Part shown: positions 51,014-52,480 of the stretch, piece after piece | How positions within the stretch are numbered: the first letter of the stretch is position 1 | How the letters are laid out: each line of letters starts with the position of its first letter | Origin: Pseudomonadota bacterium | GTDB taxonomy: Bacteria > Desulfobacterota > Desulfovibrionia > Desulfovibrionales > Desulfovibrionaceae | NCBI GenBank assembly: GCA_018822105.1 | Contig: JAHJLB010000061.1 | Coordinates: 1-54,755, forward strand | Direction of reading: 5' to 3' | DNA: 54,755 nucleotides | Notes under the pieces: generated by a model | The model's input: only the letters and a program-made list of their open reading frames with translations | Databases searched by the model: none | Told to the model about the DNA's origin: nothing | Translations under genes and position numbers: made by a program

Positions 51014-51695
51014 CCCCCTCGCCTGAGGACCGGCTGAAACAGCCCCTGCGCGCCAGCTGAAAGGCCCCCGCAGGGGCATTTTCATGGGGGGGGACAAGGC
51101 CTGGCGCGGGTTCGCAAATCCACCTCTGCCGGCAAGGTGCCAGACAGGCGCGGGAATCCCCTTCGTTCTCACCAGAACCCAAGCCGGGCCAAGGCCCTTT
51201 CGGAATGAGGCCGCCGCCGCTCCATCGCTCCTCGGCAATCGCCGCGGACGCCTGGCGGTTGCCAATGCGCCCCGGGATGACTATGCTTCCCGGATTGAGC
51301 GCTGCGCCCGCAGGTTGTTCCCACACGGAGGCCCGCTGGAGCCCGGTCCAGCTGAACAGCTACGGATTGGCGCCACCCTCGCAAGGGCTGCTGGTTCCAA
51401 CTCAGTGCCCTATATCGTGCTTGTCCTCAACGGCCGCACAGGTACCGCCGCGGCGGTCACGGAGAGGAAAGCGCACTGGAGGTGGGAATGGTGCTCCAAG
51501 TGGCGCTGGAATGGTATTGGAGCATGGAAGGGAAATTCGGATTTCGTGCGTCGTCCATCGTCAACACCTCAGGGGAATTGACGTCGCCAAAGCGATTTCG
51601 AGGGCCAGACCATCAACGATGCAGCAAGAGCTGGTCAGTATCACCCGAGACAACAATACAGGCATCGCGGTTCGCAAAGGAACAGGAGTATGATC
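51014..51695. other. 680-bp gap between the FlxA-like gene and rubredoxin
   Basis: The first 70 bp hold the FlxA-like terminator. The remaining about 600 bp have open frames on both strands, but their proteins are unlike anything I know and lack ribosome binding sites. It could hold an undetected RNA, a decayed gene or a long leader. I found no tmRNA, RNase P or SRP RNA signature. Confidence 0.5.
51042..51083 (+). terminator. Terminator of the FlxA-like gene
   Basis: GCCCCTGCG (51042-51050) pairs with CGCAGGGGC (51069-51077), followed by ATTTTC. Confidence 0.7.
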
Positions 51696-51860
51696 ATGCG
51701 TTACGTCTGCCTTTTGTGCGGCTACAAATACGATCCCGAAAAGGGCGATCCGGAGCGTGGCGTGCTGCCCGGAACCCCGGGCCATGAACTGCCTGCGGCT
51801 TGGGTCTGCCCGGGCTGCAGGACCAGCCAGGATGATTTCGCCAGGCTGGAGGAGGACTAG
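51696..51860 (+). CDS. Rubredoxin (variant second metal-binding motif)
   Basis: A 54-residue one-iron electron carrier. The four iron ligands are Cys5, Cys8 (CLLCG) and Cys38, Cys41 (CPGC). YKYDPEKGDPERGVLPGTP and AAWVCP are typical. Two usually constant positions differ: the Phe after PGT-x is replaced in PGTPGHELP, and the Gly after the last Cys is Arg (CPGCRTS). The second of two ATGs was chosen since AGGAGT ends seven bases before it. In sulfate reducers rubredoxin serves O2 and superoxide reduction. A membrane ORF starts right after the stop. Confidence 0.95.
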   Translation: MRYVCLLCGYKYDPEKGDPERGVLPGTPGHELPAAWVCPGCRTSQDDFARLEED

Positions 51861-52025
51861 ATGCCCAGAGAACTGATGCTCCCCCTGGCGCTGCTGGCCG
51901 GGGCGGCCACCTTCGGGCTGCTGTTCTGGAGGCTCAAGGGACGTTGCGCGCCCTGAATCTTCATGTATGCGGCGGTCGCCGCAGGCATCGCAGCCTACGC
52001 GCTGCTGAAGAGCTTGGGCAGCTGA
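51861..52025 (+). CDS. Candidate 54-residue membrane selenoprotein with Cys-Ala-Pro-Sec (in-frame TGA at 51954)
   Basis: The ATG follows the rubredoxin stop directly, with GGAGGAGG about eight bases upstream. The frame gives one hydrophobic helix (about residues 6-23), the basic loop RLKGR, then Cys-Ala-Pro and TGA (51954-51956). The same frame continues for 22 codons to a second TGA (52023-52025), coding another hydrophobic helix (IFMYAAVAAGIAAYALL); 19 of these 22 codons end in G or C. A SECIS-like hairpin follows the TGA. If TGA is read as selenocysteine, the product has two helices around a CXXU redox motif. The plain alternatives are a 31-residue protein ending at 51956 or a nonsense-mutated gene that once had CAPC. 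I do not recognise the family. Confidence 0.45.
51963..51988 (+). promoter_or_regulatory. SECIS-like hairpin after the in-frame TGA
   Basis: TGCGGC (51968-51973) and GCCGCA (51978-51983) form a six-bp stem around the apical loop GGTC; an outer ATG/CAT pairing (51963-51965, 51986-51988) closes an internal loop. The stem starts 11 nt after the TGA and the loop 17 nt after. The E. coli fdhF SECIS has an 11-nt spacer and a GGUC-containing apical loop. The bulged U of fdhF is not clearly present. Confidence 0.4.
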
Positions 52026-52035
52026 GGCTCACCGG

Positions 52036-52083
52036 CGAGCCCGCTTTAGGCGATCATGTCGAGCCCGCTTTAGGCGATCATAT
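52036..52083. repeat. 24-bp tandem duplication over the FlgC-like stop codon
   Basis: CGAGCCCGCTTTAGGCGATCAT plus GT (52036-52059) is repeated at 52060-52083 with one difference (AT for GT). Each copy encodes, on the minus strand, Met-Ile-Ala-stop. The gene ends in the right-hand copy; the left copy is a duplicate tail beyond the stop. Confidence 0.92.
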
Positions 52084-52480
52084 CGAGGATGTTGCCCGTG
52101 CTGCGGTCAATGGAGCCGATGGCCGCGATGTTGGCCGAATAGGCGCGCTCCACCTGGATCAGGTCCACCATCTCCCGGGCGATGTCCACCGCGCCGCCCT
52201 CGCCGGTGTAGGAGGTGGGGCGGATGAGTCCGCTCTCGTAGTCCGTGGGCCGGCTGGAGGGCACCAGGGGGAAGCCCGGGCCATCGGCCCCGGTGGTCCC
52301 CGGGGTGAGCTCGACCAGGTCGGACACGCGCACGCCCTTGCCGCCCATGCCGTCCTCCAACTCCACGCGCACGGGCCGGTAGTTCTCGGAATTGGCGTTG
52401 GCGATGTTCTCCGACGCGGCCATGGCGGAGACGTCCAGGGCCGAGATGGCCTGCACGTTCCAGTTGATGTCCAGAGTCAT
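52070..52480 (-). CDS. FlgC-like flagellar rod-family protein (isolated)
   Basis: A 136-residue protein with the rod-family N-terminal helix (INWNVQAISALDVSAMAASENIANANSENY, containing the ASENIAN-type motif) and C-terminal helix (DIAREMVDLIQVERAYSANI). This is the FlgB/FlgC/FlgG fold; the length fits FlgC. FlgC forms the proximal rod of the basal body. It lies outside any flgBC-fliE cluster here, so it may be a second copy with another task. The spacing to folE2 is 75 bp. Confidence 0.8.
   Translation of the reverse strand: MTLDINWNVQAISALDVSAMAASENIANANSENYRPVRVELEDGMGGKGVRVSDLVELTPGTTGADGPGFPLVPSSRPTDYESGLIRPTSYTGEGGAVDIAREMVDLIQVERAYSANIAAIGSIDRSTGNILDMIA

Follow-up and report, generated by a model that had tools for sequence, protein, structure and literature searches.

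A widespread and apparently undescribed family of very small, putatively Sec-only membrane selenoproteins

The locus and its candidate selenoprotein gene

The window, i.e. the whole stretch of 54,755 nucleotides that was analysed, carries on its forward strand a short gene at 51861-52025, composed of 54 codons and a terminal TGA, whose putative product reads MPRELMLPLALLAGAATFGLLFWRLKGRCAP-U-IFMYAAVAAGIAAYALLKSLGS and for which homologues are found that keep both halves under constraint. Its ATG at 51861 abuts the TAG of a rubredoxin gene lying directly upstream on the same strand (51690-51860; Pfam PF00301, 68 bits), and the strong ribosome binding site that an earlier note on this DNA had described corresponds to the Shine-Dalgarno-like GGAGGAGG located within the 3' end of the rubredoxin gene (51848-51855, + strand), a layout shared by the own-genus relatives. 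Direct reading of the sequence also bears out the Cys-Ala-Pro-TGA at 51945-51956 and the 22 sense codons that follow it in the same frame up to the terminal TGA at 52023-52025, 19 of which have G or C as third base (the exceptions are TAT, GCA and GCA).

The in-frame TGA (51954-51956, + strand), conserved in the homologues, would be read as selenocysteine (Sec) at residue 32 and closes a Cys-x-Pro-Sec motif, here CAPU (residues 29-32, 51945-51956, + strand). A hairpin of the bacterial SECIS type, supported by conservation within the genus and by covariation in relatives, is located at 51968-51983 (+ strand), with six base pairs and a GGUC loop 17 nt after the UGA. The AlphaFold2 model and the hydrophobicity profile predict two transmembrane helices, the first encoded at 51867-51932 (residues 3-24, + strand) and the second at 51948-52019 (residues 30-53, + strand), with Sec in the first turn of the latter.

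Concerning the surroundings, a 24-bp unit is repeated 2.2 times in tandem with 96% match (window 52036-52087) between the selenoprotein gene and a convergent flagellar rod-type gene; by our reading, it represents the duplicated last codons and stop of the flagellar rod-type gene. The ca. 680 bp located 5' of the rubredoxin gene (window 51014-51689) hold no convincing gene in the ORF list, and a terminator-like pattern match lies there at 51064-51077.

The in-frame TGA, the downstream frame and the hairpin in homologues

The 54-residue protein, with Cys placed at the TGA, was used as tblastn query against 198 relatives and yielded 37 places at E<=0.0016, spread over 34 genomes, every one of which (37/37) has exactly one in-frame TGA. 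Matches weaker than E 0.0016 mostly lack the TGA and were treated as chance, being read only where the order or phylum searches met them again. The TGA occupies the identical codon in all 30 translated loci of this search, and its position is the same in all 47 loci translated. In 348 genomes of the order, a profile built from 30 members found 66 places at E<=1.6e-7, all 66 with an in-frame TGA (one in 65 of them, two in G681), while the phylum search, covering 395 genomes, shows one TGA in each of its 16 places at E<=1.3e-7; in the order of genome G546, a single TGA is present in every family place among the matches listed. Since the queries carried Cys at the Sec position, Cys homologues should have scored well. 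The earlier note had proposed to look in homologues for TGC/TGT or TGA at this codon: TGA and the downstream frame are kept, and in these genome searches no Cys homologue was found among the strong places of the relative, order and phylum sets or among the G546-order matches listed. TAA or TAG never takes the place of TGA among the strong places listed.

A DNA pattern that allows TGN at the Sec codon was scanned over one genome per species for 84,980 bacterial and archaeal species. All 98 matching stretches have TGA, and TGC, TGT and TGG occur in none of them (0/98); it should be noted that the pattern fits only members with a second helix of the Tyr-Gly...Gly-x-Gly type, hence the window's own subgroup lies outside this set. 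The 80 matches listed bear Desulfobulbaceae-type and other sulfate-reducer names, including Desulfonatronovibrio, Desulfonatronospira and Desulfovibrio, the rest corresponding to unspecific proteobacterial, deltaproteobacterial or uncultured bins. Desulfogranum mediterraneum, Desulfofustis glycolicus and Desulfoprunum benzoelyticum, which are cultured, are among the species with a pattern match. The lack of TGG in these 98 matches argues against a UGA read as tryptophan, or as another amino acid, through a changed code or a suppressor. An open frame and nothing more speaks for such a reading, which we regard as barely credible: 52 of 142 members end with TGA as their normal stop, and the covarying SECIS-type hairpin described below would not be needed.

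Weaker places were also considered. The order search gave 14 of them (E 1.6e-5 to 0.0097), five with TGA and nine without, and among the ten that were read (all besides G715, G077, G065 and G116) none has Cys at the Sec position. These ten correspond to four diverged TGA-bearing members (G157, G170, G029, G068), a Sec-less companion gene in G681, G693 and G697, a broken second copy in G119, a frameshifted one in G151, and one unrelated frame. The nine weaker places of the phylum search (E 0.0047-0.0096), one with TGA and eight without, include a single one that was inspected, in G465, which shows no family-like frame. Judged from these searches, the family is apparently Sec-only.

At L236 (G151), L235 (G119) and L245 (G147), the selenoprotein gene has a second copy that is broken or incomplete (frameshifted, half-length or tandem partial), which suggests repeated duplication and decay. 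The place with two TGAs, L237 (G681:C4:2683000-2683800), has the second one near the Trp of its relatives, and Cys replaces the usual Tyr at +4; it may be decaying, misassembled or a double-Sec variant.

The window sequence taken alone is compatible with the TGA being an ordinary stop, in which case the gene would encode a 31-residue single-helix peptide and the frame beyond would be open by chance. The homologues make this very improbable. Pooled over 213 moderately diverged pairs, which overlap and are not independent, dN/dS is 0.19 upstream of the TGA, 0.28 downstream of it and 0.36 in codons +12 to +20, beyond the hairpin, i.e. the downstream sequence is conserved as protein, and Gly(+10) is retained in 132 of 133 distinct proteins; that TAA and TAG never replace the TGA among the strong places also argues against a stop. 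Frame 0 is open over 19 codons in 145/145 loci, which were found by that frame, as against downstream stops in the +1 frame in 116/145 and in the +2 frame in just 18/145; the mostly open +2 frame counts against this part of the coding argument. Pooled dS is 0.81 upstream, 0.23 in the hairpin codons +5 to +11 and 0.60 beyond, a minimum which indicates that the constraint on silent sites is strongest at the RNA hairpin. From the substitution pattern, the downstream half is best regarded as under protein-level constraint.

The hairpin of the window, UGCGGC-GGUC-GCCGCA at 51968-51983, begins 11 nt past the TGA, as had been claimed together with its GGUC loop and SECIS-like position. The criteria printed for bacterial SECIS elements (bSECIS) ask for a loop of 3-9 nt, a stem of 4-16 bp, a G in the first two loop positions, a distance of 16-37 nt from the UGA and an MFE <= -7.5 (PMC13188914, in its part on these criteria); the hairpin, with 6 bp, a GGUC loop, a spacing of 17 and -10.0 kcal/mol, falls within all of these. 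Taken singly it could be chance, a caveat that the earlier note had attached to each of its elements and that we share: when the 57-nt stretch is dinucleotide-shuffled 200 times, 8 of the versions fold as stably, which makes the hairpin only mildly unusual, and synonymous shuffles of this GC-rich gene (L001) give equally stable hairpins (z = 0.05). The doubt is removed by the TGA in all strong homologues, the 98/98 result of the TGN pattern, the identity of the hairpin within the genus and silent covariation.

Within the window's genus, the 18 nucleotides of hairpin codons 36-41 show no difference among the 6/6 species that bear the gene, and the same six species show silent variation in 14 of the 18 other codons with unchanged residue. 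Across the family, the bSECIS model fits a hairpin in 94 of 130 distinct loci (taken from 145) vs 18.6% of synonymous shuffles (60 per locus), and 36 of the 130 have no hairpin under the strict model. The loop of the best hairpin begins exactly 20 nt after the UGA in 81/130, and it reads AGGU in 43.

The search for covariation that had been suggested reveals silent compensatory changes in the relatives. It was carried out on 98 distinct sequences, made up of pattern hits and 14 phylum loci with duplicates removed, a set that differs from the 98 pattern stretches. Of the 95 sequences with both glycines, 74 have third bases in the Gly37 and Gly42 codons that form a pair (shuffled mean 42.7, maximum 62 in 10,000), and GGA..GGU exchanges with GGC..GGG leaving the protein unchanged. 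In alignment A2, 50 rows picked from the 98 to cut near-duplicates, 87% of cells are paired vs 78.9% in shuffles, and two-sided changes occur in 45 cells vs 18.5 shuffled, with slid control structures reaching at most 16; per-pair counts on all 98 agree in direction, and the relatedness of the sequences inflates such covariation counts. Four pairs have any two-sided change, no more than in shuffles (3.7). RNAalifold on A2 predicts four of the eight pairs, those beside the loop, at -1.9 kcal/mol, a weak result that perhaps arises because hairpin registers with 3- and 4-nt loops are mixed. An Rfam search of the locus returned just two chance lncRNA matches. On comparative grounds, we regard the hairpin as the SECIS element of the gene.

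Considering the conserved TGA with its downstream frame, the hairpin covariation and the selenocysteine machinery of the genome (see below), the two-helix membrane selenoprotein with a CxxU motif that had been proposed holds, and it is very probable that the UGA at 51954 is decoded as selenocysteine and that the gene represents a new family of membrane selenoproteins, very small and apparently Sec-only.

Selenocysteine machinery, distribution and gene neighbourhood

It had been supposed that the host would carry the selenocysteine machinery, and all four of selA, selB, selC and selD are indeed present in the window's genome: SelA at 533 bits, SelB at 374 bits vs a cut-off of 242, tRNA-Sec (selC) at 81.9 bits vs 47, and a Sec-type SelD at 324 bits that has an in-frame TGA of its own (G000:C10:18145-19074), so that the selenophosphate synthetase is probably itself a selenoprotein.

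The family is found in 212/257 genomes of the order of G546, corresponding to 135/148 of the good-quality genomes and 59/69 genera. In this order, 189 of the 215 genomes with a SelA match have the family, vs 23 of the 42 without (Fisher p = 3e-6, with family-negative and SelA-negative genomes taken as the gaps in the positive lists), a co-occurrence that is supportive but weak, since it is confounded by incomplete assemblies. SelA is found in 165 of the 198 relatives and in 31 of the 34 genomes with a tblastn place at E<=0.0016 (the exceptions being G012, G036 and G171). The SelA search does miss genomes: SelB exceeds its cut-off in seven family-positive genomes without any SelA match, in G171, and in G836, whose single SelA match is weak. 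Altogether SelB passes the cut-off in 9 of the 12 family-positive genomes tested, most of them chosen for their absent SelA match, and it was not found over the cut-off in G874 (94% complete), G012 (73%) and G036 (67%), all family-positive. In genus g319 all five genomes are without a SelA match, without SelB over the cut-off and without the family, absences that are best read as a coherent loss. A tblastn search of plasmids gave no match to the family.

The gene neighbourhood was scanned at 145 loci with flanks of at most 8 kb. The proposed link to rubredoxin stands within the window's genus, where rubredoxin lies directly upstream in 6/6 loci with the gene (of the 145 scanned, on the gene's strand only); elsewhere the neighbours are typA, mtnA, comF-like and der genes, and L027 is the one other locus with a rubredoxin-like motif, located 1.27 kb upstream. 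No selenoprotein gene is found behind the best-matching rubredoxin in 7/7 other species of the genus that were read, and the two remaining species have no such rubredoxin match. A family-wide partnership with rubredoxin was rejected, the adjacency being confined to the window's genus and absent in those seven congeners.

A TypA gene (representative TIGR01394) is present in 62/145 loci, adjacent in 61, on the same strand, and at a distance of 4-9 nt in 21 of the 35 measured. An mtnA-type gene is located downstream in 26 loci; a comF/GntX-like gene (below curated cut-offs) is found in 18, on the opposite strand in 17 of them, and the ribosome GTPase Der lies upstream of the gene in four (L023, L026, L029, L030). 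Two ribosome-assembly GTPases, TypA (its 62 loci falling among L054-L064 and L103-L200) and Der, are thus direct upstream neighbours in two lineages, possibly by coincidence. No constant neighbourhood partner was found across the 145 loci.

A two-helix companion without Sec and with almost no Cys lies directly upstream of the selenoprotein gene in 7 of the 11 loci read in genus g5 (L020, L088, L090, L094, L237, L239, L241). The companions have 62-72 aa, end in GRTGWP or GRIGWP (mostly GSGRTGWP or GTGRTGWP) and are homologous to the family, a paralogue by profile comparison (hhalign probability 95%); the one member scanned has no Pfam match, and NCBIfam matches are scattered only. Such a companion would fit a selenoprotein that serves a larger membrane complex of respiration or sulfur metabolism as a small accessory subunit, its Sec/Cys pair acting in local redox or as a structural cross-link. 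The size of the predicted hairpin, its Gly/Ala-rich helix faces and the presence of the family in 212/257 genomes of one order are consistent with this possibility, which we nevertheless consider rather unlikely, given that the companion occurs in one genus only and that no recurrent neighbour named belongs to such a complex.

Predicted protein, proposed function and comparison with known systems

With its ca. 54 residues, the product is predicted to form a membrane hairpin of two helices, the second of which opens with Cys-x-Pro-Sec. The AlphaFold2 model, which places helices at residues 3-24 and 30-53 with CxPU at the start of the second, is of moderate quality (mean pLDDT 72.5, pTM 0.36). 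Among 133 distinct proteins, derived from 142 loci (three without a start in range were dropped) and drawn from sets partly selected by a motif with Cys and Tyr, Cys(-3), TGA and Tyr(+4) are found in all and Pro(-1) in 130. Pro(-1) or Tyr(+4) is lost in a few diverged members; L231 and L232, outside the 133-protein set, have no Tyr at +4. (In alignment A1, M is written for GTG starts; alignment A3 holds 43 of the 95 available rows.) The stretch before Sec has a mean of 2.47 Lys/Arg and 0.68 Asp/Glu over the 133 proteins, the corresponding values being 0.53 and 0.53 at the N-terminus and 0.83 and 0.02 at the C-terminus. With a short loop so rich in Lys/Arg, the positive-inside rule would have the loop and CxPU face the cytoplasm. 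Helix 2 is Gly-rich, and the helix faces are rich in Gly/Ala.

MerT-type proteins are thought to use cysteine pairs in membrane transport, and the Cys-x-Pro-Sec could likewise bind a metal or a selenide/sulfide ligand for membrane transport or delivery, with no thiol redox involved. The Cys/Sec pair at a helix end in the model and the Gly-rich helix 2 agree with such a role, as does the MerT-family selenoprotein with C/SxxU listed in the table of a 2026 review. We judge it unlikely: PF02411 (MerT) is not listed in the 73 member scans, the 133 proteins have a single Cys/Sec pair and no conserved histidine or acidic residue, and none of the four recurrent neighbour types named is a metal gene.

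As to function, we tentatively propose a membrane-anchored, cytoplasm-facing Cys-x-Pro-Sec thiol/selenol redox switch. The UGA would be decoded under the SECIS hairpin by the genome's own SelA/B/C/D; at the cytoplasmic surface of the membrane, Sec32 would attack a substrate that is oxidised or a peroxide, possibly hydrophobic peroxides or oxidised thiols of membrane proteins, and Cys29 would resolve the Sec32 adduct to give a reversible selenenylsulfide, from which cytosolic reductant or thiol systems would restore the reduced protein. The Tyr one helical turn past Sec may stabilise the selenolate. With no constant neighbour, the redox role rests on the CxxU motif. Rubredoxin has a role in oxygen or peroxide stress, and its abutting gene in the window's genus suggests a place in oxygen/peroxide defence. 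The results back the recoding, the motif and, as a prediction, the helical hairpin; topology, substrate and reductant are what we infer.

It seems fairly likely that this is an old, obligately selenium-dependent membrane redox protein for which selenium seems irreplaceable: the family is found in 212/257 genomes of one order and scattered in another, never with Cys, and is absent from a genus without Sec machinery. It would have been overlooked because the stop codon truncates the gene and homology-based finders ask for Cys homologues. The deep-Sep paper (PMC12013277), in the passages concerned, states that all known selenoproteins have Cys homologues and retains a candidate when its top hits contain a known Sec homologue or >=2 Cys homologues. 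A widespread family lacking a Cys form would break the rule that selenoproteins have interchangeable Cys relatives, and it points to a class of genes invisible to pipelines based on Cys homologues; the question why selenium could not be replaced would also become cleanly testable with it. For sulfate reducers and related bacteria, the family adds a widely kept small membrane protein, and if this protein acts in redox at the membrane, it would matter for oxygen tolerance and energy metabolism.

That the protein is undescribed, as the earlier note had it, agrees with the absence of a match in open-access text and two family libraries, which is the ground covered. Pfam and NCBIfam release 20 gave no credible model match for the 30 + 43 members scanned, with stray single matches to unrelated membrane families (best E 6.6e-4), and a profile search of the PDB had no match. 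No prior description was found in the main texts of the open-access literature, and no entry of Table 1 of the 2026 review (119 families or subfamilies; PMC13188914) was recognised as the family by name, motif or domain id. By these searches, the family appears both widespread and undescribed.

Compared with known bSECIS selenoproteins, as tabulated and defined in that review (PMC13188914), the family shares the in-frame UGA, the CxxU motif, the Sec machinery in the genome and a hairpin 16-37 nt downstream with G in the loop; it differs in its size of ca. 54 residues, its two predicted membrane helices and the lack of any Cys homologue found. The MerT-type mercuric transport selenoprotein of the review's table (PF02411, C/SxxU; PMC13188914) is likewise a membrane protein with a C/SxxU motif, but PF02411 is not listed for the 30 + 43 members (E <= 1 and E <= 0.1). 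Like CxxU selenoproteins of the thioredoxin/SelW type, the family has Cys-x-x-Sec at a helix start. Thioredoxin-fold redox sites carry their Cys-x-x-Sec/Cys-type motif at the start of a helix; unlike them, the family shows a predicted membrane helical hairpin and no thioredoxin fold, with no sequence match. Animal SelK and SelS are small membrane-anchored selenoproteins with one helix and Sec in a soluble tail; with no sequence relation claimed, the family resembles them in being small and anchored in the membrane.
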